Shown here piece by piece: positions 9,486 through 29,448 of a stretch of 50,010 bases of DNA. Position numbers and translations under genes: made by a program. The notes under the pieces are model-generated. The model saw only the letters and a program-made list of their open reading frames with translations. It was not told the DNA's origin and searched no databases. The stretch covers positions 7,260 through 57,269 of IMG/VR virus record IMGVR_UViG_3300030116_002560; one strand, written 5' to 3'. The stretch comes from a virus. How positions within the stretch are numbered: position 1 is the stretch's first letter; each line of letters opens with the position of its first letter.

Positions 9486-11783
9486 TTATTTAATAACTTT
9501 CTTAATAATAGTTCGGTTGTTAAATGCTATACACACTGTATACATCCCTGGAGCCCATAGAGATGCGTCTATCGCGTTCGTATTAATTTCTGATACAATA
9601 ATACGTCCAGTTGAATCGAATACCTCTAAATCAACGTTTTGATTTATACGCAATATATTACCAACCGGATTAGGATATATAACTAGATCATCACCAGCCA
9701 ATATAGCTTCAATACCTGTAGACGAACAGTAGTTATATGTATCTTGACAAGTAGCATCCCATGCTTCATCACAACAATACGGATCCGCTTGTATTACCCA
9801 AGCGTAACACATATCGTTCAACCAATAAGGTTCACCAGGTCCTGTTACACAACCAGCGTCGTATAAGCAGTTGTCTGCAGGTTCGTTTGCAAGCTCGTTG
9901 TAGTTGTAAGCTAGCGGGTCCATACAGTCGACCACCACTTCCTCACACGAGCCATTGTCAGTATTAGCAGCTGGATCATAATTAAAGGCGCTACTGTCAG
10001 TACAGCCATAAATGTAAGGAATACAGCTACCATCTTCAGCATTAGCTTCCGGATCATAGTTAAACATTGTTGCGTCCGTACAACCGTAGATGAAAGGTAT
10101 ACAGCTATCATCGTCAGTGTTAGCGGCCGGGTTATAGTTAAAGGCAAGTGAGTTCGTGCAGCCTAATACTACAGGTATACAACCCTCGTTATCTACATTT
10201 GCCTCTGGGTTATAGTTAAAAGCCTCACTATCCATGCAGCCAAATACCGCGAGAGTATTACAACTACCATTATCAAAGTCAGCTTCATATCCTTGTGTAT
10301 AATATTCTAAGTAACCTGCTTGAGTACAACCAGCTTGATAGTAACAGCTACCATCTTCTGTGTTTACATCAGCATTATAATTCTGCGCCATAGTATCTGT
10401 ACATCCGTAGCTAAACGGCTCACAGCTATCACCACAGTAAGGTGCGAAGCTATATGTAGTCCAGTTAGGTTCATCAAACGGTTGTAATGCGCCTTGTCCG
10501 TTATCAAAGAAAGGATTTGTACCTTCAGATAATAACGTGTCACCAGCTTCATTAGTGATCAATACAGAGTTGTGTAGTGTCTGGAATGCTAGCTCTTGAG
10601 CTGACTGTTGAGCATTACCTTGCTGGAAGTAATAAAGCTTTACCTCCGCGTCAGAGTCTAAGTTAACAGTCCATGATTGCTCAAATGAACCAGGGCCCAT
10701 AGTAAACAACCACTGCTGATCACCTTGTATCATACCTAGCTTTGAGTTACCCCAGCCATCACCACCGTCATCTTCAATAGTAACGTTAATAGCACAAGGG
10801 CTATTGTTATCTGATATAGTAGCTAAGCTATCATAGTTAAACGCTTCAGGATTTGTACAACCCCACACATGTAGCGTTTCGCAAGTATCTTGCACTGTAG
10901 CTAATGGGTTATAATCTACGTAATCATCATCCATACAACCAGGTACGTCAGGCGCAGGTGGGCATGGCTCAGTAAATATAGCGCCAGAGTACATTGTGCC
11001 ACCGTCAAACTCTGCAAATGCTAGATCATCTAGCTCCCATATAACACTATCACAAGCTGTAATAACACAAGCCCCGTCTTCACCACCTGATGTTGAGCCG
11101 CTAAGTCCATCACCATATGTATCTACTAATATCAACTCAAAGCCTAGTGATACACAAAAGTCATATGTATATGTAACAAGCTGATCACCAAAGTTATATT
11201 CACCAGGTAATACCTGTTCGTAAAACTGACCAACAGCTAGATCAACTAGAGTAAAACCAGTTTCGTTAGGCCAAGTGTCTAACGTTAATTCCATAGACAC
11301 TAACGTCTCAGCTGAGTCACACTCAATTACATTACACTCGCCGTTGTCGACTGTAGCCCATGGGTTATAGTTGTCTGCTAGATCGTTAGTACAACCTGGT
11401 ACTAATGGTAAACAAGGATTAAGTGTAAAGTCTATAGTGTCGACAGCTGTAGAAAATTCGTAGTTAGCCGTGTCTAAACCACAAGCGTTATGTAGTCTAT
11501 AAAAACCTTCACCAAAGCCACAGCATATACCGTCGCCAAAAGCGTCCATCATTACAAACTGGTAATCACCAGCAGGTAAAAGTTTTGTTACTGTTAATAG
11601 GCTATTGTCTTGGTAAGGTGGGCTAACAGCTACAACTTGCTCATCATCGTTTAATATCTCCCAAGATGTTTCGCCTCCATAGTTATCTGTTTGTACAGTA
11701 ATGTCTAACCAACTACCTTGCCCTAATACTGAACTAGCTAATAACCAAAATAGTACTACAAATAAGTAACCTAGCTTTTTCAT
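9486..11783 (-). CDS. secreted repeat protein with C-terminal T9SS sorting domain
   Basis: A 765-residue protein unlike a usual phage product. Residues 1-21 form a Sec signal peptide (MKKLGYLFVVLFWLLASSVL then GQ). Next come modules with 'DAFGDGICCGFGEG' and 'GGDGWGNSK' motifs, and about ten Cys-bounded repeats of the form GCTDxxAFNYDPxAxxDDGSC, four of them in close tandem at about 514-613. The last 75 residues start with LVIYPNPVGN and end in KKVIK, with 'VFDSTGR' and 'APGMYTV' between: the type A sorting domain that directs Bacteroidota proteins through the type IX secretion system. The protein should be exported by the host and released or anchored at its surface. Such proteins are common in marine Flavobacteriia, so transfer from a host is likely. 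It sits between a SNase-like gene and the endolysin and starts inside the previous stop (ATGA). Confidence 0.9.
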   Translation of the reverse strand: MKKLGYLFVVLFWLLASSVLGQGSWLDITVQTDNYGGETSWEILNDDEQVVAVSPPYQDNSLLTVTKLLPAGDYQFVMMDAFGDGICCGFGEGFYRLHNACGLDTANYEFSTAVDTIDFTLNPCLPLVPGCTNDLADNYNPWATVDNGECNVIECDSAETLVSMELTLDTWPNETGFTLVDLAVGQFYEQVLPGEYNFGDQLVTYTYDFCVSLGFELILVDTYGDGLSGSTSGGEDGACVITACDSVIWELDDLAFAEFDGGTMYSGAIFTEPCPPAPDVPGCMDDDYVDYNPLATVQDTCETLHVWGCTNPEAFNYDSLATISDNNSPCAINVTIEDDGGDGWGNSKLGMIQGDQQWLFTMGPGSFEQSWTVNLDSDAEVKLYYFQQGNAQQSAQELAFQTLHNSVLITNEAGDTLLSEGTNPFFDNGQGALQPFDEPNWTTYSFAPYCGDSCEPFSYGCTDTMAQNYNADVNTEDGSCYYQAGCTQAGYLEYYTQGYEADFDNGSCNTLAVFGCMDSEAFNYNPEANVDNEGCIPVVLGCTNSLAFNYNPAANTDDDSCIPFIYGCTDATMFNYDPEANAEDGSCIPYIYGCTDSSAFNYDPAANTDNGSCEEVVVDCMDPLAYNYNELANEPADNCLYDAGCVTGPGEPYWLNDMCYAWVIQADPYCCDEAWDATCQDTYNYCSSTGIEAILAGDDLVIYPNPVGNILRINQNVDLEVFDSTGRIIVSEINTNAIDASLWAPGMYTVCIAFNNRTIIKKVIK
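9930..10250 (-). repeat. tandem coding repeats of the GCTD/NYNP module
   Basis: Inside the T9SS-type gene, four near-identical units of about 75-80 bases follow each other. Each encodes (Y/L)GC(T/M)D..AFNY(N/D)PEAN..D..SC and a short IP.(I/V)(Y/L) linker. More diverged units occur on both sides. The likeness at DNA level (for example repeated 'ggatcatagttaaa' type strings on the plus strand) suggests recent duplication or recombination between units. Confidence 0.8.
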
Positions 11784-13371: not shown

Positions 13372-13758
13372 TTAACATTTCCATCTACGTCTAGCAGCTC
13401 TACCTCTTTCGCCTTTCCAGCCTTTTGATCTAGCGCAGAATGATTTTCTACGTTTAGCAGCTTTACTACCTGGTTTCACTTTACCAGTTACAGCTGTTTT
13501 TAATTTACTACCAGGATTTTTACGCCTGTATTCTTTTACGCCTTTTGCTGTCATTCCAGCACCTTCCTTTACGGTTCGGAAGTTACGGCCTTTACCTTTA
13601 GTAGTTTTCCTAGGTTCTTTGCTTTTTTTCCTTTTTCTCTTTTTTCGCTTATCAAAAGGGCTTTCGTCAACCATCTTAAAACCACTGCCTATACCACCAG
13701 CTCGACGGCGACCACAAGAGGTTATAGGTATAGGATTATTTTTTTGAGTGTACGCCAT
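13372..13758 (-). CDS. DUF6321-like very basic protein, 128 aa
   Basis: A 128-residue, strongly Lys/Arg-rich protein. The block from GMTAKGVKEYRRKNPGSKLK through KRRKSFCARSKGWKG, ending RRRWKC, matches the pattern I know from phage DUF6321 proteins (AKGxxxYRRxNPGSKLKxAVT, RRxSFCAR, final RxWxC). I start at ATG 13758, two bases after the barrel gene's stop; an upstream ATG at 13788 would add ten residues lying inside that gene. Such proteins are abundant in marine tailed phages with no established role; charge suggests DNA or RNA binding. Confidence 0.75.
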   Translation of the reverse strand: MAYTQKNNPIPITSCGRRRAGGIGSGFKMVDESPFDKRKKRKRKKSKEPRKTTKGKGRNFRTVKEGAGMTAKGVKEYRRKNPGSKLKTAVTGKVKPGSKAAKRRKSFCARSKGWKGERGRAARRRWKC

Positions 13759-13760
13759 AG

Positions 13761-14795
13761 TTAGAAGATTACATAATTTGCACCACACTTAAAGTTATAC
13801 CATTCCCTATTCCAGTATTTGTTATATCTACCTTCAAGAAAAACTCCAATGTGTTTGTTGAATCTGTGTCCGAAAATAAGCCCGCCCGAGTAGTCAAGCC
13901 ACTGGCCGTCCACTGTGTTGTGATACATATATTCCCCACCTGTGTCGTAATGGTAGGGCATAACATTTCCCCAAGTGTGGAACCAGAAGTCCTCTGTAAA
14001 GTGATAGAAGTCGAACCCGGCAACCACCGAGTAATTCCACTGGCGAGCAAGTTCATTTCTTTTTCTAGCAGTGTATTCAGATAAGACTTCAGGGATAGTG
14101 ACTGCTTCCCAGACCTCAGTGTTTGAAGCGACAACTGTTCCGTCTGGATCCATGTATTCTCCAGTTGTAAGGTTGTGAGTATATCCTTCTTGAAGTGCGA
14201 GGTAAGTGTAGTGAATATCTCCGTTTGCAAGTTTCCATTCTTCAAGTGGATCATACCCATAAGGTTCTGAGATACGTTGAGCGATTCCTGCGTGAAGAGA
14301 AAACTTCTTACCGAGTTTAAGTCTATATCTCTGAGAGGCCTCGAAGTATTCGATATCTGCAAACCCGTCTTCAAGATATTCAACCTTTGCCATAACTTTG
14401 TCTCCGATGTAACGAAAAAAGTGGTGCTGGTTAAAAAACTCCCGACCCTGCTGTCTTTCATACGTAACTTCTCCAAGAAACTCTATGCCGTTACGCTTAC
14501 CTATATTAGCGTCAGCAGAGTACGAAGTTTCCGTTCCGTCGTAAAACGCGTTAGCTCTATTCTCATATCCAAATCTAGCAATTTTACGAACACCCATAGA
14601 CAAACTATAGTCAAATGGAGTTGCTATAGTCTCTTGAGTTAACCCATCAGTAACAGAGTATATAGTCTGATCTGATACAGAGTTGCCGCCGTTGACAGCT
14701 GCGTAGAAAGTAGAGAACTTAAATGCTTTTTTTAGTTCTTGAGCTTGAGCTGTAACGCTGAATAAAAGCGTTAATAATAAAATGATTTTTTTCAT
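13761..14795 (-). CDS. phage-encoded outer-membrane beta-barrel protein
   Basis: A 344-residue protein with a clean Sec signal peptide (MKKIILLLTLLFSVTAQAQ). The body alternates polar and aromatic residues in strands (for example GIEFLGEVTYERQ, QRYRLKLGKKFSLHAGIAQR, YSVVAGFDFYHF, GVFLEGRYNKYW). It ends in an aromatic strand with terminal Phe (CGANYVIF), the usual C-terminal signal for beta-barrel insertion. It should sit in the host outer membrane. It lies 9 bases after the giant virion protein gene, in the host-interaction block. A role in superinfection exclusion or envelope change is inferred. A virion-borne membrane pore is the alternative. Confidence 0.78.
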   Translation of the reverse strand: MKKIILLLTLLFSVTAQAQELKKAFKFSTFYAAVNGGNSVSDQTIYSVTDGLTQETIATPFDYSLSMGVRKIARFGYENRANAFYDGTETSYSADANIGKRNGIEFLGEVTYERQQGREFFNQHHFFRYIGDKVMAKVEYLEDGFADIEYFEASQRYRLKLGKKFSLHAGIAQRISEPYGYDPLEEWKLANGDIHYTYLALQEGYTHNLTTGEYMDPDGTVVASNTEVWEAVTIPEVLSEYTARKRNELARQWNYSVVAGFDFYHFTEDFWFHTWGNVMPYHYDTGGEYMYHNTVDGQWLDYSGGLIFGHRFNKHIGVFLEGRYNKYWNREWYNFKCGANYVIF

Positions 14796-14804
14796 AAATT
14801 AGTT

Positions 14805-17800
14805 TTATTGAGGTGGTCTAGGACCTAATCCCGAACCTCCACCACCACCAAGTGGTCTAGGACCTGGAGGACCTGACTTAGATTTTTTCTTCTTTCGTTT
14901 TGCTTTACTTTTAGCCTCTAAGACAGCTTCGTTTTCTATACCTAAAGACCAAGCTGGATATCCAAGACCTACAGATATTCTTTGCCACGTCTGGTTGTTA
15001 GAATCAAGCATTTCCCTAAGGTTGTCTGTCTTTTGGTTTATTCTGTCAAATGGTAGATTTGTTACTGCTTGTAAGGCTTTAGCGCTAGCATCTATAGCTG
15101 GATTATCGATATCCCATCCCATCTCACCAATAGCATCTCTATTGTAATTCCACGTTCTAGATGCGGAGTAAAGGTTTCTAAGCTTAGAACCTATAACAGG
15201 TGAAACACTAGCGCCTTGAAGTATAGTCATCGTGTGATCTGGCTGAGTAAAGTAGCTATCGTCATACGCTTTTTCTTCTTGTTTTTCAAATTCTAAAGCA
15301 GCATTTTTTATTGCAGAAATAGCAGCTCCACCAACACCAAACCCTCGAAGTTGAGTATCAATAACAGTGTTAAGAGTTCTGTCTAGTGACTTGTTAAAAT
15401 CCTCATCACTTAAATCGTCTTCTTCGTCTAAACCAAAGGCGAATAAAGCGTTTTGCATAGCAGCAAATATAATAGATTGTATAGCTCCATAGTAAGTTAT
15501 AGTACCAACGTTTTCAAGGAAGTTGCCTCTACCGTTAATTATATCTCTAAAACGCTTCTCTTGTATACGCATGTACTGCATCTGCGTATTACCCCACGCT
15601 AATAAAGTTCTACCTAATGTTGAGGCTTGCTGTTGTGAAATAAGATCTGCGCGAGAAGACTGCTGGTTGCTTTCTGCTAGTTCTTGGAAATCCAACCAAG
15701 CTTTAGCTTCGGCTTGAGCTTTACTCATACCTCGCTTTTCATACATTTTAATTCTATTTCTAAGGTATGTAGCTCCGCCACCCGCAATAGCAAAACTATC
15801 TGCAACTTGAGTAGGTGTAAAACCTTTTTTAATTAACCAAGCAGCAGCAGCTTTAACTTTATTGGTCTGCCCGGCAACAGCAGCGGCAAGCTCTGCTTCT
15901 TGCACGTTGTACTCTAAGCCAGCTCTTCTCTGCTTAAGCATGTCAGAGTTCCATATATACGAAAAGTCTTTCCAAAACTGCTTTTGATTAGCAAACGCTT
16001 TAGCTGCAGCCAAAGGATTATTTTCTCTCATGTTCATAAAGTTTGTTGCCGATATTGTCTGAAGCAATGCTGATCTCATATTTAAGAACATTGTTACACC
16101 AACAGAACCGTTAACCCAATTCATCCAAGCGTTTTCTAGTCTATTTCTTCCGCTAGGTCTATTAGAACCAGTTTTCATTCTATATAACATGTCTTCCAGC
16201 GCCTCTCTAAATTTAGGCCCTTGCGTTGCTTCGATTTTCGCCATGTTCTCCGGAGAGAATATAATATCTATATTTTGCTGCCATTCTTGAAGAAATTCAG
16301 CTCTTTTTGTTTTATTGTTTAGTTTAAATAAATCAGAAACAATAGTTTCACTAACCCAATTGTTTCCAGGTTCTGGCCACGAGCCTTTAGATATACGCTG
16401 TAAACCGTCTACAAAATCTAATAAATCATTATTTTTTTCTACAAACTGGATAACACGTCTAGTGTCTCTTTCAGAAAGACCAGGCATATCCTTGCCGTTT
16501 ATTTTAGCTATGTAAGTTCTTATCGCTTGATCTACAGTAAAATCAGACCCTGGCATTTTTTCATTTAACTTTCTTTTAACGCTAGGTATATCTTTATAAA
16601 GAACTTTTAAATCTTCTGCAGCCGCCTGTCTTGACGCGTTCATTTCTTTGGTAGCTCTAGCAAACGGGTCGACTAAATTCTTTTTAAACCAAGCGCGATC
16701 AGCTTCTCCTTGCTTACCTTTACCCATGAAGTTTTGCATCATGCCCATAAAGTCTTGAGCGCCAGGCACAACTAAAGATCTACTCCATCTGTCTTTACCA
16801 GCCATTTTACCTCGAGCTTCGCTAAATCGTTTCTTAGCATCAATACCAGTAACACGCTCAATCATTTCATTAAAGTCTTGGCTCATGTCTTTAGCAGCAA
16901 GACGTTTAGCTTGCTGAACATCCGACTTAACGTCTAATCTGTCCATTACAAACTTAACAGCTTCAACGTTTGGCATGGCGTCATCCGCGAAGTACATGTC
17001 ATTATAACCCTCTGCGAACTTACCAACCATCCATCTAGCTTTTGCAGCACCAGTACTGTTGCCTAAGCCAACAATATTTTTTAACGGTAGTTTGAGTCCT
17101 TGCGAATCTAAGAACTTCTTTATAGCAGGTGCAGCCTCAGGAGCTCTAGCTGTAAGTATATAGGTATCTTTTGTACCAAACTTCTTAGCTCTTTCTAAAG
17201 CTTTTTCTAAGAAAGGTCCTGGTTTACCATCTGTTACTTTGTTAAACTCAGAAAAATCAAACTCATAACCTTTGCCAAGTAATTCAGAACCACGCTTAGC
17301 AAATTCAGTTGCATTTAATTTACCTGTACTTCCATCTGGTGCTTTCCACAGAACATCAGACTTAGTTAACGCAAGAGTATCGTCAAAATCCCAGGCGCTC
17401 ATACCTCTTCTTTTAGCATTAACATCTCTAGCTAACGCGGTGGCTTTATTAACGTCCTCTAATAACTTAGTTTTTTCTGCTGGCGTAAGATCTTTTGCGG
17501 CAAATCTCTTAGATGTCGAAGGCATTAAGGCTTCAATGTCTTTAGCGCGCTGTTGATCGAGCTTCTTGTATCTATTAGCATTCTTTTTCACATGCTCAAG
17601 ATTTCTTATTGACCCTTCGGACGCGTTTTCAAGTAGCACTCTATTAACCGCATCTTGTAAATATAGTTCATTTATTTCACCTTTACGAAACTCAATACCC
17701 ATCTCACGAAGATCTGTAAGTAGTTCTCGCATCATGCGTTGGTCTTTGTTTTCACCAGTAAACTTCCCGGTTTTGCTATCAAACTCCATAACCTCTTTAA

Positions 17801-20800
17801 GGCCTTTTCTAAGTTTTGCAAATCTAGCTAGACCAGCGGTATTAGTTTTAGTTCCTCTTATATCAACAATTTCTAATGCTACTTCTGGAGCAAATATCCC
17901 AACGTAATCTTTAGCAATCTGTCTACCTTTAGTCGTCCAAGTACCTAAAACTGCGTTAAATAACATTTGACCACTTGCTTTAAGACTGGTCTTAACGTGT
18001 TCTATTTTAGCTATAAAAGATAGTGTTTCTGCTTTTTTAGGTGATATGCCCTCTGCGATTAGATCTTTTTTTAGAGCTTCTAAAGCAGCGTTATCACCAA
18101 TCCAGAACGCGTCTTTTCTTAACCAAGCTCTAGCTCCTTCTGTTAAATTAGTATTTGATCTTGCTGTTCGAGCTAAATATCTAATTGCTTTTCTTAAATC
18201 AGCCTCAGTCTTAGCTTCTGTAATTAAGTTTTGGTGGGTTTGACCTAATGCTTGATACGCTTCTGCCTTTGCGTTTTCTGTTTCTGGAGTAAAATCTTTT
18301 TCTATACTCTCCATGATTTCTTGCTTAGACTTACCTTCGCGCATCATCTTCATTGAGCCCGTATAGCTAGCACCTTCACTTGCAGCTGTAGTCAAGTTTT
18401 TAACGTCAACTTTTTTGAACGAAGGGTCTACTTTGCCACCGGGTTTTTTAAGAGCTTCTCTAACGCTTTTAAGCAATGGATCTGAGAAAGGCACCTCTAC
18501 AAGCTCACCGTTCTTTTCTCTATATAAATTAGTGTGTTGGTTTTCTTTTATATCTAACCATTCTTTATATTCTGACTTTACAGGCTCTCCATTATCCCAC
18601 TTTTCAATAACTTTCTTTACCGTAACATTTTTATCATGACTAGGATTTTTTACCTTTTTTCCCTCTTCATTGACGATTTCGGGTTTAAGTTCTGGAAACT
18701 TAGTTTTAAGAGCGGACTCAAGCGTTTTTTGACCAGTCCTCAATGACATAGGATCGCCAGCTATAGCCTTTTTTTGAGTATCTGTAAGTTCATTTGGCAG
18801 CCTATTTTCAATCATTTCAACCATAAATTTAGAGTGCTCTTTTAAAGCTTCATACTTTATAGGTCTCATTCCAGCTTTTTTAGCCCCTACATAGCTACCC
18901 TCTTCTGCAACGCTGCGCATTTCTTCAATAAATATCTCCCCAAACTTTTTGCCGTCTATTCCTTCTATACCCTTTCCATTGTTTAAAGTTTCAGCCCTAG
19001 TATCAAGTTCTATCTTTGATTCTGTAGTGTCAAGCTGTCTTTCAAACTCTTTGTTTATTTGTTTAAAAGTCGAAAAAGCTTTATTCTCAGCAGCAGCATC
19101 AACTATTGACTCATTGTAGGTTATTACTGATTCCCTAAGTTCTGATGAGCCAAACGTGCGGTTTAAGAAACCGAGCATGTCTTTAGGTATTTCTTTAAAA
19201 TCTTCGTAAATCCAGTTCTTAAAGTGTGCGCGAGCTTCTTTAGGAGGTAATCTGAACTCTTTACCTAAGTTCTTTTCAAAACTCGTTATATCCTTCTCCA
19301 TAGCTGCAAGTCTCTTGCTCTTGCCAGAAGTAACCTTTTCAATGATTTTCTGGGCATCTTGCATAGCCTTGAACTTAGGAGACTGCTGCATGTATAGGTC
19401 AGCTATCTGCGTAGTTATAGCTACTCCATATTCATTAAGAAGTTCTTGAGATATTCTCTGTAAAGCTGGATCTTTAAATTGATTTTTACCAGGTATTTTT
19501 TCTACCATAGCATCAATGTTAACGTTACCATACTCTTTCATGAACTGAATATCTCCAGCTGTCATTTTATCGGTAGGCTTTTCAGATATCTCAATAGCTT
19601 TTTCTTTTACGTTTACTTTTTTACCAGCAAAATCAGCTTCAGGAAGTCTATTGTCAACAATACCTATTTCTTTTAAGTATGCATCTCTATTTTGTATTCC
19701 CTCAAGAACCCTCTTTTTTACAATATTACCAGCTTTGTTACCCGTACCTTTTACTTTATCTCCTCTAACCCATTCCCCTGTCTCACTAAAACCAGCTCTT
19801 ACTTTCTTACCGTCAACAACTAAATCTTCGTAGAAAACCGCAGTAGCGCTTTCTGCGCCAGGGCGTTTTCTTGATTGTAACGTAGTGCGTACACCAGTTG
19901 CTTTACCAGTAGTCTCAGCTTGAGTATTCTGGCGCATAGATGCATCGATGTTTTCCTGGTGGTTAGCTATAAAGTTAGCTTTCTTTTGATTAGCCGTACC
20001 GTAGTCTGATCCATCACCAAACCTTTTCTTAGCACTATCTTTAGCAGATTTAGGTGTAGGTGGATTAGAATAACGCTCAATCATGGGTTGCACTAGATTA
20101 GGCATTTTAGATATATCAAAATTAGGATCTGCTAAGTCTAATTCTTTAATACTCTCAACTACTTTATTTATATCAGCCTCGGTCAAGAACTTAGCGTCGG
20201 CAGGTATAATCCTCTTGCCGTCTCTACTTGCTCTTACGTATTGTTTACCTTCTAAAGCACTACGCATTCCTTTACCTCCAGCTGCTTCAAGCTCTTGATA
20301 ATCTCTAGTATTTGAATCGGCAACCTCAAACCTGTTATTTTCGAAATTATCTAGCTCAACCTTTCTAGCTGATTGTTCTTCTCTTGATTTAGTTTGCTCT
20401 TCTCTAAAAATTTTCTTTGATCTTAACGCCAGCAAAGATCTTAAACGAGCTGCAAATGACGATCTTGCAGGATCCCACGCCTCAAATATACCTTTTACCT
20501 CTACTTCAACACCTAAGTCGTAAGCCTCTTTTGTAACGCCAGTCAAATCTTCAAGGTCTTTTCTATGAAGTTTTTTAACATCTCCAATATATCCCTCATG
20601 CGTTTTAAGAAGTTTTTGAAAAAGAGCTTGATTTTCTAGTGTATTTTCGTTGCCTTGCTCAATAGCTTCTTTATATTGTTGAGCATCAATCTCAGCTTCG
20701 TAAGTCTTCTTTTCAAGCGCCTCTACATTCTTTAGCTTTTCTTTAGTAGATTCTACTTTAGCTTCAAGAGCTTGCTTTTGTTCTTTGAACTTAACAGTGT

Positions 20801-23800
20801 TTTCTTTAGCTTTATCTATCTGCTTGTTTTTTACAAGCTCTAAATTAGTACGCTTAAAGTTTTCAGATAACGTTTGTATATCTTTTTCTAGCTTTTGCGT
20901 CTCTACTTGTAGTTTAGCTTTTTCTTTACTTAGATCACGAGTGCCTTTAGTTTCTTTCGCTGCTAAATCTTTAAATTGGATTTCTCTGTGCTCGATCTCC
21001 ATCCAGCTCATTTCATCTATGTTTCCCAACGTCAGTACTTTACCAGCTATTCTTTCGCCTCTTCTACCTGAATCACCAAGTCTACCTAAAAATCTAATAA
21101 ACGATTTAGAACCTCCAGGTGTAAACATTTTTCTAAAAGGCATAATTTTACCATCTGGACCAGGTAATGTAAACTCTTCAAGATACTGGATTACGGCTTG
21201 GTGAGCTCCTCGTAAAAAGTTGTTGTTTACTTTTGTGTAATATACATTTGGATTAGATACAAACTCTGCTAAGTTACTTAAAAACTCCTCGCGCATTAGC
21301 TGCTCGTGCTCCGCCTTGGCTTTCCTTAAATCCTCTCTTTCTTTAGGGCTTAATTCAGATTCAGACTTAAGCGTTTTACCGTCCTCCTTAAATTCAAATG
21401 CTTCACGTTTGCGTTTGTAACTTTTAGAAACTTTACCTTTAACTTCCGCTAGAAGTTCGTTAAGATTTTTTCCATAAGCGTCTTTAAATGCTTTGTCGAT
21501 GCTATCAACAAACTTAGCTTCTTGTTGCTTGTCATTCTTAAACACTTGACGTAGCGCTGCGTGAACAAGTTCGTGAGTGTTTATTGAATTAAATCTTAAA
21601 CCGCTTTTGCCATACTTACTTAAGTCGTATATTAACTTATTTGTTTTAGGATCAAATCTAGCGATTTCATCTGGCTCAAATAACTCCGCCCTTCTTTCTT
21701 TGTACCCTGGAGTATTAGCGTCTAAAAACTCAACCCCTAATGGCTTATGATTTTTACCATTAACTTGTTTTAATATGGCATTGATTGGATCTAGAACTAT
21801 TGAGTTAAAGTTCTTTTCAAACTCAGGATTTTTTACTCTTTCGCCCTTTTCATTTGTAGTCCAAGGATCAAGCTTTTGATTCATGGTATGAAAATACATG
21901 TAATGACTGGCGTGCGCTAAAGTTTGCGTATAATCTTTTATTTTATTTCTTTCAGATTCAGTGTAAGATTTTTTAGCTCTTTTTAAACTACCGTCTTCAT
22001 TAGTTTCGTTTAGCTTATCTCTTTCTCTTTTTATTCTGTCTTTAGTTCTTTGGTACTCTTTATCTGTATAACTTGAGTCCTTTTTTCTTCTTCTTTCATT
22101 TTCTTTTTCCTCGCGCTTAAGTTCTTTTAATTTTTCCTTATCCTCGTCTGTTCTTTGTATATCTTTAATTTTTTCCTTAAGATTTACTTGTAGCTTAGCG
22201 TAATGAGCGGCGTTGGCTGTCCTACCAGGGGCGTTAAGCATTCGACCAAAAGCGGTTTTACCAGGTGTTATTTTTTCTAAATTACTTCTCCACTCTTTAG
22301 CTTTAAGTCCCTTAGCACCAAAGAAACCAAACGTTACCGCGTTTAGAGCAAACTCATGAGTCTCTTCATCGAGACCTTTCCAAACATCTTTAAACTCTAA
22401 GTCTATTTTATCCTGCCAGTCTTCAATTAAAAGCTCCACTCTATGAGCCGCGGCCATAGATATACCACCACCTAAACCAGCACCAACAGTTTTCTGCATA
22501 ACAGGCATAGATAAAATAGGTATCCTACCTAAAACACCAGGCATCATTCTACCTGTTAAAGCAAACGAAGCACCTGAACCTGTTTTAAATCCTACAAACT
22601 GCATTTTTGCTTCTTCCCAAGCCATAAACATTAAAAGCTCCGCGGCTCTTTGATATCTTGAGCCTTTTCTTAACCTATTAGCCATATTGACTATCCCAAG
22701 TTTAGTGCCTACTCCTTTAGTAACATAGGTAATAGCACCTAATTCAGCAAGCATAGGTACAAACGCGCCTATATTTTCAGCAGCTTCGTCTGCGAACGTA
22801 GGTTTAAAGTTTTTAACTTGATCTTCGCTAAACACTATAGGATTTACTTTACCCTCTTTAATAGCTTCTTCATTAGCTGTATTAAAATCAAAGGCTAGCT
22901 CTTGATAATTTTGTATATCTTGTTTAGACGTATATTGAGGACTTGCGCCAGCACCTACACCAGTTTGCGCGCTAATATCTTGAATCTCTCTTTCTGAAAA
23001 ATCAAATACACGCAGAGTTTCTTCCACCGCACCAACAGACGTGTCAGCCCACCATCTAGCTGCAGTTGGTAGAAATCCTTCAACTTTTTTTGTTCCAGCA
23101 GTTATATCTTTAGGATCAATAGCTAAGTTTACTTGATTAGTAATAGCCCCTAATAAAGCTCTATTAACATCCATAGCAGATTCATATCTACCTAACTTAA
23201 GTATATCATCTTGACTTATAAACTCATTAGAAGCAAAGGTTGTTGTTGTCCATCTTTCGTCATTAAAGTCTCTAGCATCATATCCTTGTTCAACAAGCCA
23301 GCCAATAGGAACTTTAAGTTTCTCACCACTACGCGCCATTCTATCAAACTCCTCTTGAGTTACAATACCACTATTTACGGGTTTACCCAGCCACTCTTGT
23401 TTAATTAACTTACTTACAAAATCTAAAGTTTCACCTCCTAGTCTATAGTCTCTACCTGAAGACATGCCTCCAAATTGAGAAAAGCCCTGAGATCCAAGAA
23501 ACTCATATATATCTTGTAATACTTCTTCGCCTTTATATTTATACCCTGTACTTAAAGCTCCACCAGGCGCAAAAACACTTAAATCAATTTCAACATTCAT
23601 ATCAGGATCTTGCCACGAGCGCTTTTCCATTTGATCGCGATCTAAGGTAAGATTCCTTCTATGTCTCATTAAAGCCTCTAAATCAAGTATAGTAGTACTT
23701 TTGCTACCATCGTCTTTGAAAACTGTACTTAATATCTGGTTTCTACGTAATTCTGATTCAAAGTTATTTATAGCTTCAGCAGCCAATCTTGCGTTTTCCT

Positions 23801-26372
23801 GGTTCATACCATCTCCATCTGCCCATAAGTTAGATGCTAGCTCGTCTACCGAAGCTCCAAACCCAGCTTTTGCCCACCACGGAGCATATTCTTCCGCAAC
23901 AAACCCAAAATTACTAAGATCATTTTCAGCGTCGTTTATAGACGTTTCTACCGCTTTTAATTCTGCTTCAAGCGTCTCTGCTTGTTTTGCAATAGACTTC
24001 TTTTCCGCTTCTGTTTCGGCGTTATCGAAGTCTTGGCGTAGATCTTGCATTTGCTTTTCTAAATCAAACCTTTGAAGATAGAAACCAGGTTCTTCTAATG
24101 TACCAACAAGAGGTTCAACTAAATCCCATTTTTTTTGAAGAGCTGGTGCTAATTTATTCTTGTATTGAGCAAGATATCTATTTTCCCTATCTATAATTGG
24201 CTGATCGACTTCGCTGAAAAGAGATGGTCGATTAGCTGCATTAAAAGCGCTTTCTTGAGAGCTTACAATAGAGCTTAACATCCCACCGTTAGCGCCTCCG
24301 GTAAGAGTAGAAAAGTCACTTCTACTCATAATAAAATCACCTTGACGATTTAAAGTTTGATATGTTGACTCGTATATAGCGTTTAAATCTTCTTGATTTA
24401 CTTCAAACGCAGATCCAGGTTGTACCATTCTTGCCAACTCGTTTGACATAATGCTTCTAATGTTACGAGTTATAGCAAGCAGTTCTTCACCTTTCACTGT
24501 TTTCTTATTAGCGTCAAATCCAGCCTCATCAATGTTGTGTCTAAGATCATATTCGTCATCTACTCCTGGGTTAATTCCTCTTCCAAGCTGTTGCTGAAGT
24601 TCGGTAGGTTCATTACCCATCATATTAACGCTAACACCTAGTTTAGCTTGTTCCCAGCCTTCCCATAAAAATTGTCCAGCGCTAGGAATAAACCCCTCTG
24701 TTATTTGGCCGTTCATCGTGGGACCTAAAAACATACCTATAACTTCGTCTGTACTATATCTTGAAATACTTTCGTGAGCTCCTTCACCTAGCGGTATTAT
24801 TTCTATGGTATTATCCGATACTTTCTTAGAATTTTCGCCAAATTTATTTATTTCGCCTCCAGTAAGTTCTGCGACTTTTTTATTTGCTTCAAAATCATCA
24901 GCGGCCTGGTAGTCATACATGTCAGGTGCATACTCTCCACTTTCAAGTTCTTCTTCTGTTGGCTGTCTGTAATCGCTTTCATCTACAAATTTAGCAATTC
25001 TGTCCGCAAAGCTTTGTTCTGGATTCCAAACCTTTCCATCAACCATAATATCCCCTTCGGGATTGAATTCTTCGCTAGTAGTAAATTCAACGCCGTCGCT
25101 AAATAATCCAAACCAACCTCCGCTTCCGCCAAGAGGTATTTTTTCTCTTTTACCGTTATTTTGATTAACAGCCATTATACCATGTATTGGATCAAAGGAT
25201 CCAAGATGTCTATGGCCTTCTTCAAAAGTCTCAAATCTAATATTAGTATTTACATACTTACGGTTTAGGTTTCTTGATATTGACTCTAATACCTCGTTTG
25301 CATCATAGTTTTCGTTTTCATTCGCCATCCAGGTAGTCATATCTTCACCTGTTACATGACCCTCACCATCACCATCATCACCATAAACAACACCGTTCCA
25401 TAAATCGTTTTTCTCCTCATTATCTTGCGTTCGCTCTGCAGACCTTTCGTTCTTTAACCTTTCCGCCTTAATTGCTTCGTTGTCTAATTGTTGAAAAGTT
25501 GAATCGTCTACCCATTCAGTTTCTCCCTTACTGTTTATAAAATAATAATTACTACCTATATTTGGAGATGTTACCTTTTTGTAATCACTCTTTTTTCGAC
25601 CAGTTTCTTCAAAGTGATTAGCCCACCAATTCGCATCTGTAGTCTTAGCATTTACAACTTCGTCTTCTTTTTCTGCAAGCGCTCCACGTAGATCCATCAT
25701 CTTCTTCATGTTGAAGTAAAAGTTACCTCTAGCTATTTGGCTTGGTAAAGTTTCGCTTGTAAAATTCGCACCACTTAAATAAGCGCCGTCTTCGTAATCC
25801 ACTAAAAAGCGGTAACGTTCAGCAGGTGTTTCTAAAGCTTGAAATTCCGCAACATTATTAGGGTGATTCTCATCTTCAATAGAACCTACAACTGGCATAG
25901 GAAAAGATAAAACGTTTGGATTCTTTGATTTTTCCCTTGCTGCGATTTGCTCAAAGTGACTAGACTCGTCTTCCATACCTCTCCATATTAAATCAGGTAC
26001 CCCGCTATTCTCTGGATCGTCTCCAATAATTTTTGACCACTGATTATTTTCAATAAGTAGAGACGCTTCTATTCCTTTTTCCCAAAAGTTAGGTTGAGTA
26101 GACGGTGAATCTACTTCTGAGTCTGGCGCTGGTGGATCTAACCATTGAGATCCATCTGTCACGCCATAAAGTGGATCCGATTGCTTTCCCACGCCAATAA
26201 GTGTAGAAAAGTCGTCTATCTTCTTAGAATATCCTGCGTTAGCAAAAAGAGTATAAGAATCGTTTAATGCCTGCTTATTTGTAGACATTAAAAGCTTATA
26301 GTCTTCTAAGCTGCCTTTATATCCAGCTTCTTTAAAAATTAAAAAAGAGTCGTTTAAAGCTTGTTCGTTCAT
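14805..26372 (-). CDS. giant (3855 aa) polyvalent virion protein, zincin + HAD domains
   Basis: One uninterrupted 3855-codon frame. The N-terminus has two 30-residue repeats (QALNDSFLIFKEAGY at 4, QALNDSYTLFANAGY at 34). Residues about 1430-1510 are highly charged coiled coil. A zincin metallopeptidase motif HELVH lies at 1600-1604, with a later FLSNLAEFVSNP that may hold the third ligand. A HAD phosphatase domain spans about 2990-3150: DFDDT (D2995, D2997), then ILTAR, then YFADD (D3130, D3131). Near 3625-3650 is a hydrophobic stretch (SIIFAAMQNALFAFG), and the end is Pro/Gly-rich (GPPGPRPLGGGGGS). Multi-domain giants of this type (polyvalent proteins) are packaged and injected with phage DNA to act in the new host cell. 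Placement after two internal-virion candidates fits an ejected core protein like the T7 internal proteins. Other domains are probably present but unrecognised. Confidence 0.82.
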   Translation of the reverse strand: MNEQALNDSFLIFKEAGYKGSLEDYKLLMSTNKQALNDSYTLFANAGYSKKIDDFSTLIGVGKQSDPLYGVTDGSQWLDPPAPDSEVDSPSTQPNFWEKGIEASLLIENNQWSKIIGDDPENSGVPDLIWRGMEDESSHFEQIAAREKSKNPNVLSFPMPVVGSIEDENHPNNVAEFQALETPAERYRFLVDYEDGAYLSGANFTSETLPSQIARGNFYFNMKKMMDLRGALAEKEDEVVNAKTTDANWWANHFEETGRKKSDYKKVTSPNIGSNYYFINSKGETEWVDDSTFQQLDNEAIKAERLKNERSAERTQDNEEKNDLWNGVVYGDDGDGEGHVTGEDMTTWMANENENYDANEVLESISRNLNRKYVNTNIRFETFEEGHRHLGSFDPIHGIMAVNQNNGKREKIPLGGSGGWFGLFSDGVEFTTSEEFNPEGDIMVDGKVWNPEQSFADRIAKFVDESDYRQPTEEELESGEYAPDMYDYQAADDFEANKKVAELTGGEINKFGENSKKVSDNTIEIIPLGEGAHESISRYSTDEVIGMFLGPTMNGQITEGFIPSAGQFLWEGWEQAKLGVSVNMMGNEPTELQQQLGRGINPGVDDEYDLRHNIDEAGFDANKKTVKGEELLAITRNIRSIMSNELARMVQPGSAFEVNQEDLNAIYESTYQTLNRQGDFIMSRSDFSTLTGGANGGMLSSIVSSQESAFNAANRPSLFSEVDQPIIDRENRYLAQYKNKLAPALQKKWDLVEPLVGTLEEPGFYLQRFDLEKQMQDLRQDFDNAETEAEKKSIAKQAETLEAELKAVETSINDAENDLSNFGFVAEEYAPWWAKAGFGASVDELASNLWADGDGMNQENARLAAEAINNFESELRRNQILSTVFKDDGSKSTTILDLEALMRHRRNLTLDRDQMEKRSWQDPDMNVEIDLSVFAPGGALSTGYKYKGEEVLQDIYEFLGSQGFSQFGGMSSGRDYRLGGETLDFVSKLIKQEWLGKPVNSGIVTQEEFDRMARSGEKLKVPIGWLVEQGYDARDFNDERWTTTTFASNEFISQDDILKLGRYESAMDVNRALLGAITNQVNLAIDPKDITAGTKKVEGFLPTAARWWADTSVGAVEETLRVFDFSEREIQDISAQTGVGAGASPQYTSKQDIQNYQELAFDFNTANEEAIKEGKVNPIVFSEDQVKNFKPTFADEAAENIGAFVPMLAELGAITYVTKGVGTKLGIVNMANRLRKGSRYQRAAELLMFMAWEEAKMQFVGFKTGSGASFALTGRMMPGVLGRIPILSMPVMQKTVGAGLGGGISMAAAHRVELLIEDWQDKIDLEFKDVWKGLDEETHEFALNAVTFGFFGAKGLKAKEWRSNLEKITPGKTAFGRMLNAPGRTANAAHYAKLQVNLKEKIKDIQRTDEDKEKLKELKREEKENERRRKKDSSYTDKEYQRTKDRIKRERDKLNETNEDGSLKRAKKSYTESERNKIKDYTQTLAHASHYMYFHTMNQKLDPWTTNEKGERVKNPEFEKNFNSIVLDPINAILKQVNGKNHKPLGVEFLDANTPGYKERRAELFEPDEIARFDPKTNKLIYDLSKYGKSGLRFNSINTHELVHAALRQVFKNDKQQEAKFVDSIDKAFKDAYGKNLNELLAEVKGKVSKSYKRKREAFEFKEDGKTLKSESELSPKEREDLRKAKAEHEQLMREEFLSNLAEFVSNPNVYYTKVNNNFLRGAHQAVIQYLEEFTLPGPDGKIMPFRKMFTPGGSKSFIRFLGRLGDSGRRGERIAGKVLTLGNIDEMSWMEIEHREIQFKDLAAKETKGTRDLSKEKAKLQVETQKLEKDIQTLSENFKRTNLELVKNKQIDKAKENTVKFKEQKQALEAKVESTKEKLKNVEALEKKTYEAEIDAQQYKEAIEQGNENTLENQALFQKLLKTHEGYIGDVKKLHRKDLEDLTGVTKEAYDLGVEVEVKGIFEAWDPARSSFAARLRSLLALRSKKIFREEQTKSREEQSARKVELDNFENNRFEVADSNTRDYQELEAAGGKGMRSALEGKQYVRASRDGKRIIPADAKFLTEADINKVVESIKELDLADPNFDISKMPNLVQPMIERYSNPPTPKSAKDSAKKRFGDGSDYGTANQKKANFIANHQENIDASMRQNTQAETTGKATGVRTTLQSRKRPGAESATAVFYEDLVVDGKKVRAGFSETGEWVRGDKVKGTGNKAGNIVKKRVLEGIQNRDAYLKEIGIVDNRLPEADFAGKKVNVKEKAIEISEKPTDKMTAGDIQFMKEYGNVNIDAMVEKIPGKNQFKDPALQRISQELLNEYGVAITTQIADLYMQQSPKFKAMQDAQKIIEKVTSGKSKRLAAMEKDITSFEKNLGKEFRLPPKEARAHFKNWIYEDFKEIPKDMLGFLNRTFGSSELRESVITYNESIVDAAAENKAFSTFKQINKEFERQLDTTESKIELDTRAETLNNGKGIEGIDGKKFGEIFIEEMRSVAEEGSYVGAKKAGMRPIKYEALKEHSKFMVEMIENRLPNELTDTQKKAIAGDPMSLRTGQKTLESALKTKFPELKPEIVNEEGKKVKNPSHDKNVTVKKVIEKWDNGEPVKSEYKEWLDIKENQHTNLYREKNGELVEVPFSDPLLKSVREALKKPGGKVDPSFKKVDVKNLTTAASEGASYTGSMKMMREGKSKQEIMESIEKDFTPETENAKAEAYQALGQTHQNLITEAKTEADLRKAIRYLARTARSNTNLTEGARAWLRKDAFWIGDNAALEALKKDLIAEGISPKKAETLSFIAKIEHVKTSLKASGQMLFNAVLGTWTTKGRQIAKDYVGIFAPEVALEIVDIRGTKTNTAGLARFAKLRKGLKEVMEFDSKTGKFTGENKDQRMMRELLTDLREMGIEFRKGEINELYLQDAVNRVLLENASEGSIRNLEHVKKNANRYKKLDQQRAKDIEALMPSTSKRFAAKDLTPAEKTKLLEDVNKATALARDVNAKRRGMSAWDFDDTLALTKSDVLWKAPDGSTGKLNATEFAKRGSELLGKGYEFDFSEFNKVTDGKPGPFLEKALERAKKFGTKDTYILTARAPEAAPAIKKFLDSQGLKLPLKNIVGLGNSTGAAKARWMVGKFAEGYNDMYFADDAMPNVEAVKFVMDRLDVKSDVQQAKRLAAKDMSQDFNEMIERVTGIDAKKRFSEARGKMAGKDRWSRSLVVPGAQDFMGMMQNFMGKGKQGEADRAWFKKNLVDPFARATKEMNASRQAAAEDLKVLYKDIPSVKRKLNEKMPGSDFTVDQAIRTYIAKINGKDMPGLSERDTRRVIQFVEKNNDLLDFVDGLQRISKGSWPEPGNNWVSETIVSDLFKLNNKTKRAEFLQEWQQNIDIIFSPENMAKIEATQGPKFREALEDMLYRMKTGSNRPSGRNRLENAWMNWVNGSVGVTMFLNMRSALLQTISATNFMNMRENNPLAAAKAFANQKQFWKDFSYIWNSDMLKQRRAGLEYNVQEAELAAAVAGQTNKVKAAAAWLIKKGFTPTQVADSFAIAGGGATYLRNRIKMYEKRGMSKAQAEAKAWLDFQELAESNQQSSRADLISQQQASTLGRTLLAWGNTQMQYMRIQEKRFRDIINGRGNFLENVGTITYYGAIQSIIFAAMQNALFAFGLDEEDDLSDEDFNKSLDRTLNTVIDTQLRGFGVGGAAISAIKNAALEFEKQEEKAYDDSYFTQPDHTMTILQGASVSPVIGSKLRNLYSASRTWNYNRDAIGEMGWDIDNPAIDASAKALQAVTNLPFDRINQKTDNLREMLDSNNQTWQRISVGLGYPAWSLGIENEAVLEAKSKAKRKKKKSKSGPPGPRPLGGGGGSGLGPRPPQ

Positions 26373-26401: not shown

Positions 26402-28762
26402 TTAATAATTTGCTGCGTTTCGTCTCGCTTGGTTAACCGCCGAGTTACCGCTTCCACCGCTGCCAACGCCTTCCCTCAGCATATCCATAAGCCATTTACT
26501 ACCGCTCCATCCCAAGCCTTGACTACTAAGTAACTCCGCGTCATTTTTAAACGTATATGTTTCTGTTTTGTAATCCCCCGTTGCTTTACCTTGATCGTCA
26601 AGAATTGGTACTTCTTGCTCTCTACTCCATTTATCGCGATCTGGATCATACACGTAATCGTATTTACCAAATTCAAACTGGTTTGAAACGTGATCTCCGT
26701 TTAGTATATCCATAAAAATCAACGCCGCACCGCGTGTATCAGCATTAGTTGGAGCTGTTCCTCCTCTATAAGTTGCTCCAGGGAAATCGTCTTTTGCGCT
26801 GGATCCACCGTAAAGTTCTATTTCTTCATCATCATCATCGTCACCACCTCCTCCGCCGTCATCGTCAACTTGTTGAGATGCCACCCATTGATCAAACAGC
26901 TCTCCATGACTACGCGTAATATCTTGAGCATACCATTCAACAAATATTTCTTTAGCAGCTGGATCGTCAAAATTTAACATAGCTTCTCTAAGAACTTTAA
27001 AGTTCTCTAAGTTATTTTCAAAGTCTGCTTCAGAAAGGCCTGGAACCCCGTCAGTATCTAACGCGCTTAACTCTTCACCTGCGATGTCATTTATCGCAAC
27101 CCACATTTCAGCTGAAATTCTACTTGGCATAGACAATTGCTCTTTGTATGAAAACTCCATATTACCTATAGGTTGCCCTACCATATAAGCCATCTTTTCC
27201 GGTGTATCAATAGCTTTCCTTAAATTGTTTCTAAGCTCATGCTCTCGTAAAGCACCACCTTGTTGAGCTGCTTCTAAAACATTAATTTCTAATTGCTGCC
27301 ATGCAGCTAGTGTAGTTTCCGCGTTTGGTATAAGAAGATTAGCTATATCTTTACTTCTTACAAACTTTTCTTGTCTGTCTGGAATATCAACAACCACGCC
27401 TTCTTGTCTTGCAAGAGACTCAATATTATCCGGTAAAACCTCTACAACAGCAGCAACTCTCTCTTCAAAACTAGTGTCTGGAGCATTAATTAGAGTAGTC
27501 GATCTTTCGCCGGGGGACTTGTCTAGCCAATCTTCATTCACGTTATATTTATCAGCGCTTTGCCATTTTAAGTAACGCTGAACTTCAATAGGCATATCCG
27601 GGTACTTCTCGAGCATTTGCTGTGGAGAAAACTCTTGATTTTCAATTTTATCCCAAGGTAAATCTGGATATTGCGCTTTTAAAATGTCGTCAATAATACC
27701 TTTTTTCACCTCTGGATCTTTTATTTCAAAATCCTCGGGAAGATTCATGCGGCCTGGAGTATAACCCTCAGCTTTCGCTTTAAGATCATTATATAGACCT
27801 AGTTTTGAAGAGTAATCAGTCCATGCTTTTTCAGTTTCAGGACCCCACTTACCATCAACGCCAAACTTAGGAAGGTCGTATCCCGCTGCTTTAAGCTTTT
27901 TTTGCATAGCCCTAACATCTTCGTTGACTACTCCTGCGACCACATTGTCAGGTTTAGTTATAGTAGGGTCAAAGTCTTTGTAAGCATCGGTTTGTAGTTC
28001 TTGAGTAGCTTTTCTAGCGTCTTCTAATTCTCCAGCTTGTCGCTCTTGAAATCTAACAGCTACGTCGCTTCCATCTAAGTATTGTAAAGAGCCATCGTCT
28101 TGATTTACTCCACTTATTTCTTTATCGTCCTTATCGTACAACTTCCACGCGTATTTACCATCAGGCATCTTAACGTGCTTTGCATATACACCCGCATGAT
28201 CACCCTCTGCAATAACACCATCCTCAGACATAAACGTTTCAGCAAGTAGCATGTTAAAGTTATCAGACGCTCCTGTGTCAAACGTACCGTTATTAAGCCC
28301 TTCTACAATTGCTGTTTTATTGGCTTGAAATGAAGCAACTTCATCTGATATCTCTTTTTTCCTTTTCTTATACTCTTTCCATGTCATTCTACTTTCGTCT
28401 TCAGTAGTACTTGGATCGTCTTCGGTTTTATCCCAAAACTTGAGCATACCCTTTCTATCTTCCTTAAGTTCTGCTATCTCGTTAAGAAGTGTTCCACCCA
28501 TATTCTCAGACATCATCTCAAGATCTTCAACTGGTGGGGCTTTAAATTCGTCAATAGCTTTTTTAGCAAGCTTAGCACCTTGTTTTGCTGCTACTTCAGC
28601 TACCTTAGCTAATCCTGCACCCATCTTACCCATGCCAGTAGCGTATGAATCCGACATCATCTTAAACGTAGTGCTAAGATCTTTAGCCACGCCAGCCTTG
28701 CCGGCTTGTAATGCCGCGCTAGCTATAGTAGCATCTGCTTTCCCTGTTAAATTTATTGACAT
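26402..28762 (-). CDS. internal virion protein with peptidoglycan-binding domain, 786 aa
   Basis: A 786-residue protein. The N-terminal 60 residues are Ala/Gly/Lys-rich and helical, like membrane-active ejection proteins. A peptidoglycan-binding (PG_binding_1-like) module is visible at about 280-325: VRAMQKKLKAAGYD, then FGVDGKWGPETEKAW. Acidic and Gly-rich tracts (VDDDGGGGGDDDDDEEIEL) lie near residue 640. No catalytic lytic domain is recognised. The layout suggests a core protein that contacts the cell wall during DNA entry. It is upstream of the giant polyvalent gene and downstream of the Ala/Gln-rich 222-residue protein, as in ejection-protein clusters. Confidence 0.75.
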   Translation of the reverse strand: MSINLTGKADATIASAALQAGKAGVAKDLSTTFKMMSDSYATGMGKMGAGLAKVAEVAAKQGAKLAKKAIDEFKAPPVEDLEMMSENMGGTLLNEIAELKEDRKGMLKFWDKTEDDPSTTEDESRMTWKEYKKRKKEISDEVASFQANKTAIVEGLNNGTFDTGASDNFNMLLAETFMSEDGVIAEGDHAGVYAKHVKMPDGKYAWKLYDKDDKEISGVNQDDGSLQYLDGSDVAVRFQERQAGELEDARKATQELQTDAYKDFDPTITKPDNVVAGVVNEDVRAMQKKLKAAGYDLPKFGVDGKWGPETEKAWTDYSSKLGLYNDLKAKAEGYTPGRMNLPEDFEIKDPEVKKGIIDDILKAQYPDLPWDKIENQEFSPQQMLEKYPDMPIEVQRYLKWQSADKYNVNEDWLDKSPGERSTTLINAPDTSFEERVAAVVEVLPDNIESLARQEGVVVDIPDRQEKFVRSKDIANLLIPNAETTLAAWQQLEINVLEAAQQGGALREHELRNNLRKAIDTPEKMAYMVGQPIGNMEFSYKEQLSMPSRISAEMWVAINDIAGEELSALDTDGVPGLSEADFENNLENFKVLREAMLNFDDPAAKEIFVEWYAQDITRSHGELFDQWVASQQVDDDGGGGGDDDDDEEIELYGGSSAKDDFPGATYRGGTAPTNADTRGAALIFMDILNGDHVSNQFEFGKYDYVYDPDRDKWSREQEVPILDDQGKATGDYKTETYTFKNDAELLSSQGLGWSGSKWLMDMLREGVGSGGSGNSAVNQARRNAANY

Positions 28763-28779: not shown

Positions 28780-29448
28780 TTACCCATCTAGTAACGAGCT
28801 TAAACCACCCGTGGCAAAGTTACCAACAGCTCCAGCTACACCACCGATAATATCTCCAAACATACCCATACGCGCGTTTTGCATACTCGCCATTGTAGCT
28901 TGCCCAGACATTTGATTAGCAAAGGCAGATTGAACTCCCGCACGAGCGCCAGCCATCTCGCCAAGTTCTGCCGCATATAACGTAGCTTCTCGAGAAGCCT
29001 CTGCTTGTTGGACTGCAGCAGCGCCTTGTCTTCGCAGTGTTTCTATTTGTTGAGCCCCTCGCGCGGTCGCCATTCGATTAGCCGCTTCCTGTCTAGATAT
29101 ATCAGCTCCTACTTGTCTTGCTTGTAAAGTTCCTTGTCCAGCTAATGTTTGCGCTAAGCCAGCTATACCAGAGGCTCCCGCTGCGCCACTAAGACTAGCA
29201 AGTATATTAGCTCTTTGTTGACGACCTTGCTCCATTTGAAACTGAGCAGATTGTTGATCTACCGTTAAATCTTCAAAAGGATTTTCCATACTCGCGAATG
29301 GATTCCTAAATTCAAACTGCCTATATTGTTGTTTTTGTCTTTCAAGATTAGCGCGTTGTTGCTCTTGCCATACTTTATTCTCCTCTACTTGAGAATCTGT
29401 GACTTGAGTAATCATTGCTTCTTGCTCTCTTTGTCGTCTTCTACCCAT
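28780..29448 (-). CDS. Ala/Gln-rich internal virion protein, 222 aa
   Basis: A 222-residue protein with a Gln/Arg/Glu-rich helical N-terminus (RANLERQKQQYRQFEFRNPF), long Ala/Gln helices (residues 80-185), and a Gly/Ala hydrophobic C-terminal segment (FGDIIGGVAGAVGNFATGG). This composition is typical of small ejected core proteins, such as T7 gp14 or P22 gp7 analogues, that insert in the envelope. Sequence identity to those is not claimed. Placed just before the two large internal-protein genes. Confidence 0.72.
   Translation of the reverse strand: MGRRRQREQEAMITQVTDSQVEENKVWQEQQRANLERQKQQYRQFEFRNPFASMENPFEDLTVDQQSAQFQMEQGRQQRANILASLSGAAGASGIAGLAQTLAGQGTLQARQVGADISRQEAANRMATARGAQQIETLRRQGAAAVQQAEASREATLYAAELGEMAGARAGVQSAFANQMSGQATMASMQNARMGMFGDIIGGVAGAVGNFATGGLSSLLDG

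Follow-up and report, generated by a model that had tools for sequence, protein, structure and literature searches.

A cysteine-free giant protein of a podovirus related to Flavobacteriia phages is very probably an ejected polyvalent protein with candidate zincin and HAD phosphatase activities

The polyvalent proteins of phages described by Iyer et al. (2017, PMC5512222) are very large and multidomain, lie beside late virion genes and combine a zincin metallopeptidase (MPTase) hub with variable partners. Zeta-toxin-like kinases are already known in them, and zincin-driven processing has been proposed for them (PMC5512222). In phage N4, gp50 carries a zincin before a helical C-terminal domain (PMC12633501), and a C-terminal region is needed for encapsidation according to work cited in PMC5512222. 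N4-like virion RNA polymerases are without cysteine, which has been explained by their passage through the tail and the periplasm (PMC3715699, PMC2784036, PMC3915230), and the cargo proteins of crAss001 are expected to be partly unfolded on ejection (PMC10172136). Here we analyse P0001, a giant protein encoded in a window of 50,010 nucleotides (positions 7,260 to 57,269 of the 57,269-base virus record IMGVR_UViG_3300030116_002560), and propose from its sequence that it is very probably an ejected polyvalent protein.

As described in the initial annotation, P0001 is the product of a single 11.6-kb gene, one open reading frame with an ATG start and no interruption (Table 1). The gene is the last of the virion/late block, behind the genes of a 222-residue and then a 786-residue protein. 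The terminase, portal and structural genes of the window match PHROG families of phage head genes, the portal being 54% identical to that of MW202828, 47% to that of Maribacter phage Panino, 44% to those of elemoviruses and 25-36% to those of Cellulophaga and Tenacibaculum phages, and the window virus is a podovirus related to Flavobacteriia phages. The trio is similar in order and sizes to gp52-51-50 of N4 (150, 644 and 3500 residues) and to gp14-15-16 of T7 (196, 747 and 1318 residues), and the structural block also ends with a giant in elemovirus, MW202828 and phi38:1/phi40:1. In Cellulophaga phage phi40:1 the last gene (gp101) and the four preceding genes are annotated as structural from MS/MS; gp101, virion-found by this annotation, is the equivalent of P0001 by position, not by sequence. 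These comparisons, together with the lack of cysteine throughout the trio, support the ejection-protein position that had been assigned to the gene. A reading of P0001 as a tape measure or tail fibre was dropped in view of the short-tailed phage, the internal-protein position and the absence of cysteine.

Table 1. Features of the P0001 gene and of its two presumed partner genes (positions in the window)
Feature	Position	Strand	Basis or remark
Giant gene P0001, 3855 residues, no Cys	14805..26372	-	ORF call and Cys count
Residues 1-66, two tandem ~31-residue repeats (A-Y-x-K-x-x-D-F type), then low-complexity linker	26175..26372	-	common to MW202828, L050 and L052 giants only
Residues 67-1484, variable region, mostly without family match; Lys/Glu-rich helices about 1380-1525	21921..26174	-	within 1000-1440, matches in only 4 relatives
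Residues 1485-1785, zincin metallopeptidase-like domain (H1600, E1601, H1604, E1696)	21018..21920	-	metal site
Residues 1786-2984, largely helical by sequence	17421..21017	-	conservation limited to close relatives L010/L011
Residues 2985-3169, HAD phosphatase domain (D2995, D2997, T2999, T3074, R3076, K3111, D3130, D3131)	16866..17420	-	motifs and fold model
Residues 3170-3855, C-terminal module, all-helical and conserved, with a K/R/P/G-rich tail; presumed scaffold for packaging/ejection	14808..16865	-	
786-residue presumed ejection partner (N4 gp51 / T7 gp15 position), PG_binding_1 domain, no Cys	26402..28762	-	
222-residue protein without Cys, with two hydrophobic stretches rich in Gly/Ala; presumed partner in ejection (N4 gp52 / T7 gp14 position)	28780..29448	-	

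Three further genes of the minus strand may be recorded here. A second giant of 2836 residues with 0.35% cysteine (31448-39958) occupies the position of the large stabilisation/tail protein, which has 1300-1600 residues in relatives. A 765-residue protein (9486-11783) begins with a signal-peptide-like segment, contains repeats of the unit 'CTDxxAxNYNPxAxxDDGSC' and 38 cysteines in all, and carries a Por_Secre_tail domain (E 3e-10); it is seemingly addressed to the host type IX secretion system. A Lys/Arg-rich protein of 138 residues (13372-13788), matching DUF6321 at E 4e-11, adjoins, downstream, the giant and a 344-residue signal-peptide protein.

Whereas 35 cysteines would be expected in P0001 from the other genes of the window, it has none, and the same holds for each of its partners. 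Cysteine is scarce in the remaining structural proteins of the phage as well (0.28%), and the depletion is thus partly a general trait of virion proteins; at that rate, the chance of finding none in 3855 residues is still 2e-5. Fifty relatives of P0001 contain 115 cysteines in 137,949 residues (0.08%) compared to 1.10% in neighbouring ORFs, and 14 of the 115 (0.01%) lie outside the last 100 residues, the terminal ones forming one or two DUF5763-like modules. In about 20 relatives (e.g. L010, L013, L019, L023, L056) these Cys/His modules make up the final ~75 residues and hold nearly all the cysteine of otherwise cysteine-free giants; P0001 has a K/P/G-rich tail at this place. Among the controls, N4 gp50, gp51 and gp52 and T7 gp15 and gp16 have no cysteine, T7 gp14 has one and the cargo proteins of crAss001 have 0-0.24%, whereas most other proteins of the control phages have 0.3-2.7%. 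We consider the absence of cysteine to be the strongest evidence in the sequence pointing to ejection of P0001, and if this reading is right, it would offer a simple sequence test for phage proteins that travel through the tail.

No family reached its cut-off when the whole protein was compared with Pfam, PHROG, NCBIfam and PADLOC; matches to TraI_2 (E 0.005) and MobH (E 0.0017) near residues 2714-2784 fell far under the cut-offs and were discarded. A tblastn search of 50,697 phage records gave one match, the N-terminal repeat in MW202828. Profile searches for ART and LPD domains, which had been suggested as a check, detected neither, as no Pfam match of either kind to P0001 or to the N-terminal parts of 42 relatives was obtained at E 0.003. 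The hydrophobic segment noted earlier was found as three stretches (residues 1201-1221, 1272-1316 and 3628-3648), whose hydropathy over 21 residues is modest throughout (about 1.0-1.3). Of the coiled coils it can be said that helical stretches rich in Lys and Glu, located at about 1380-1525 and 1820-1965, appear compatible with them. The figure of about 3000 residues without assignment was slightly high: ~300 residues of zincin, ~185 of HAD, ~690 of C-terminal module and ~66 of N-terminal repeat can be delimited, leaving about 2,600.

The relatives were gathered by scanning viral contigs with the last 600 residues of P0001, which yielded 50 loci. As they were found via the C-terminus, the sharing of this part (~45% identity over the C-terminal ~870 residues across ~50 contigs, and about 45% between residues 3000 and 3800) is by construction, and it is the differences elsewhere that are informative. 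Forty of the 50 giants are complete at both ends and range from 1303 to 3978 residues, with a median of 2916. Residues 100-1000 of P0001 match none of the other giants and residues 1000-2400 only one to four of them; even where two giants share 60-80% identity in the C-terminal module, BLAST matches cover, in the median pair, 7% of the sequence ahead of the HAD. The N-terminal 66 residues are one of several unrelated short N-terminal modules, which in these loci are confined to giants. The MW202828 giant has the N-terminal repeat in common with P0001 and its residues 352-837 in common with L050/L052 and yet shows no C-terminal match, which points to module exchange. Our comparison suggests a variable N-terminal part, exchanged or re-evolved from phage to phage, joined to a stable backbone of zincin, HAD and scaffold. 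Only in L021, L029 and L055 is the gene immediately preceding the giant homologous to the 786-residue partner, and the partner gene is therefore no common family marker. Matches in bacterial assemblies were all to metagenome-assembled contigs, several of them of Bacteroidota. In the closest relative (contig 3300029787_000134) the giant is seemingly split over two adjacent loci, L011, which is 5'-open, and L061; a frameshift or an assembly break may be the cause.

The zincin motif proposed earlier is borne out. HELVH at residues 1600-1604 is the only HExxH of P0001, with E1696 as third ligand, and 46 of the 51 family members have exactly one HExxH, where shuffled sequences give a mean of 0.7 members and a maximum of 4. 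The five members that lack it include two truncated sequences, and the MW202828 giant (L006), whose C-terminus lies outside the family, is the only one of the set with two, both HEFGH, at residues 1615 and 2500. The distance from the motif to the C-terminal module is fairly stable, with a median of 1165 residues (quartiles 1121 and 1291), whereas that to the N-terminus runs from 393 to 1705. MAFFT aligned the HExxH unaided in two separate sets, and a dedicated alignment of 29 highly divergent domains left only H, E, H and the downstream E as invariant columns (H1600, E1601, H1604 and E1696 of P0001). A model of the region (pLDDT 77) gave lethal-factor-class, selecase and PPEP-2 chains as best structural rows, mostly zincin-class, with Z only about 5; Foldseek against the PDB gave no significant match to this model, and when viral contigs were searched with the zincin region, three loci were found, each on a contig that the analysis already included. 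The zincin fold of residues 1485-1785 is thus supported, not proven, and judging from its invariant site the domain is probably an active protease.

The HAD phosphatase of the initial annotation is also confirmed in the sequence. Motifs I-IV lie on a Rossmannoid fold: DFDDT with both motif I aspartates (2995-2999), the motif II threonine in LTAR ending at R3076, the lysine K3111 and the acidic motif IV DD at 3130/3131. Nine residues (D2995, D2997, T2999, T3074, R3076, K3111, D3130, D3131 and N3135) are invariant in 22 HAD sequences, and an AF2 model of residues 2880-3855 (pLDDT 68) shows the Rossmannoid domain followed by an all-helical region. With this active site, the domain is quite likely a working phosphatase. 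Its closest fold by VIA-align is the T4 Pnkp phosphatase (Z 11.0, 125 residues, rmsd 2.9), whose lead over other HAD-like folds is less than 1, so that the rows are tied.

It is against these two sites that a purely structural role has to be weighed, in which P0001 would be a conduit or motor like the bulk of T7 gp16 and its zincin and HAD folds inactive building blocks. Such a role would suit the position and partners of P0001, which correspond to those of channel-forming proteins, the helical character and lack of assignment of most of its sequence, and the finding that 8 of the 50 relatives have no match to the HAD region. Yet inactive relics would not keep exactly the catalytic residues, and the four metal-site residues of the zincin are the sole invariant columns and the catalytic residues of the HAD are likewise invariant. 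As seven relatives have in addition gained a kinase inside the HAD, we consider a purely structural protein improbable.

In these seven relatives (L023, L037, L038, L039, L040, L053, L056) a P-loop kinase that matches AAA_33 and Zeta_toxin (E to 3e-13) is nested between HAD motifs I and II, in one same loop in all of them, about 45 residues past DFDDT. A P-loop was sought in P0001 and is absent, so the kinase half of Pnkp is not in the protein of the window. The nested kinase may act on a nucleic-acid end or on a small molecule. Its profile weakly matches zeta toxin (1gvn, E 0.0016), PezT (0.014), Pnkp1 and T4 Pnk (1ly1, E 0.3), and is thus closer to the zeta toxins, a kinase type with precedent in polyvalent proteins. 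Since HAD enzymes moreover accept a wide range of substrates and the structural comparison ends in a tie, the HAD might dephosphorylate a nucleotide, a sugar phosphate or a phosphoprotein, and the relatives' kinase might be a UDP-GlcNAc kinase of zeta-toxin type, such that the cell wall is weakened or host metabolism altered and no nucleic acid is repaired. We give this reading appreciable weight, short of calling it likely. Against it, the polynucleotide kinase family phrog_415 matches the HAD domains of 16 of the 22 relatives, which are free of kinase (best 8e-7), with no match to the HAD of P0001 itself at E 0.01; the T4 Pnkp phosphatase heads the structural rows; kinase plus HAD phosphatase is the Pnkp combination; and a DNA ligase is present in the same genome. 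The left end of the virus record, outside the window (locus L005, G000 C1), encodes this ATP-dependent DNA ligase (560-1345), a pyrimidine-dimer DNA glycosylase (1805-2284) and a sigma-70 region 4 protein (3012-3770), and a 3'-phosphatase would fit with the ligase and the glycosylase. Activity of the HAD on nucleic-acid ends is therefore conceivable, though we hold it to be somewhat doubtful.

The C-terminal module gave no significant Foldseek match against the PDB, which is no proof of a new fold. In BFVD its model matched four close homologues; the other matches, some forty, are to distant proteins, mostly of 10-15% identity, with E to 1e-11 and TM mostly 0.3-0.47. The distant matches are mostly second or third segments of phage giants, and several are named large polyvalent protein-associated, ART-PolyVal or MuF. 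The modelled fold suggests a common packaging/ejection module of phage polyvalent proteins, a TM under 0.5 leaving doubt. That it matches the C-termini of proteins annotated as polyvalent supports the polyvalent nature claimed for P0001, in which we also find two disparate predicted activities, zincin and HAD, with complete active sites, encoded by the last gene of the structural block. The accompanying claim that several effector activities are delivered into the cell stands in part: the zincin and the HAD have complete, conserved catalytic residues, the searches detected no effector family, ART and LPD included, and delivery is presumed.

Taken together, we conclude with considerable confidence that P0001 is best explained as the largest of three internal ejection proteins, a polyvalent cargo with putative zincin and HAD activities. 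We propose that P0001 is packaged inside the head, where the conserved helical module at its C-terminus probably anchors it, and that the 222- and 786-residue partners, as in N4, DEV and T7, would first build the envelope channel. P0001 would then be threaded through the portal and the short tail ahead of the DNA, at least partly unfolded, and the lack of cysteine, itself plain from the composition, may serve to keep it free of disulfides as it crosses the periplasm. Inside the cell, as the invariant active sites suggest, the zincin would act as a protease whose most likely task is to divide the giant into units, or else to process a host target, and the HAD as a phosphatase, for which nucleic-acid 3' ends are our favoured substrate; a ligase might then close breaks in host RNA or in the phage genome as it enters, at the ends so treated. 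In its boldest form, which is speculative and rather unlikely to hold as a whole, the proposal is that this widespread phage lineage ejects an end-healing enzyme, a Pnkp-like 3'-phosphatase that in some members has a nested kinase, on a cysteine-free giant cut by its own zincin, mending the damage of host nucleases to incoming DNA or to tRNA before phage genes are expressed. If we are right, about 50 viral contigs would share a defined architecture of swappable N-terminal part, family-wide protease, phosphatase (sometimes with nested kinase) and conserved scaffold, and the HAD would hint that enzymes for repair or counter-defence may enter the cell already made, as part of the phage particle.

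Of the known systems, gp50 of N4 (Schitoviridae) is, like P0001, encoded at the end of a trio of ejection genes arranged in the same order, has ~3500 residues and no cysteine, and carries an identical HELVH before a large helical C-terminal domain. Position, size class, zincin and composition would all allow P0001 to be an N4-type virion RNA polymerase too diverged for profile searches. However, motif B of single-subunit RNA polymerases and the crass-type DxDGD were sought in P0001 and are absent, no PHROG or Pfam RNA polymerase family matches it, and hhalign against gp50 found no homology beyond the HELVH stretch and no profile match for the C-terminal module, making such a polymerase extremely unlikely. 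T7 gp16 has the same gene order, and gp15 and gp16 are without cysteine, but P0001 is three times longer and contains no Pfam match at E 1 to the lytic transglycosylase domain of gp16 type; hhalign found nothing between P0001 and T7 gp16, the elemovirus giant or the phi19:3 giant. The cargo proteins gp45-gp50 of crAss001 (PMC10172136), a Bacteroidota podovirus, are also large, helical and cysteine-poor, yet they are RNA polymerase-associated proteins and P0001 has no such motif. With T4 Pnkp the family of P0001 shares the HAD motifs, the top structural row, phrog_415 in most of the relatives' HAD domains and, in the seven, a P-loop kinase; it differs in that the HAD is embedded in a giant virion protein and the kinase is nested in the HAD, not N-terminal to it. 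By its domain make-up P0001 belongs with the polyvalent and ejection proteins of phages; it resembles the former in size, multidomain organization and genomic position and has its C-terminal fold in common with proteins annotated as polyvalent, although no ART, LPD or other named domain is found in it by profile and its zincin is recognised by the metal site only. P0001 extends the known class of injected giant phage proteins and founds no new one. What is new for polyvalent and ejection proteins is the HAD phosphatase with an optional nested kinase, the words phosphatase and haloacid being absent from the census in PMC5512222, and the recurring backbone of zincin, HAD and scaffold.
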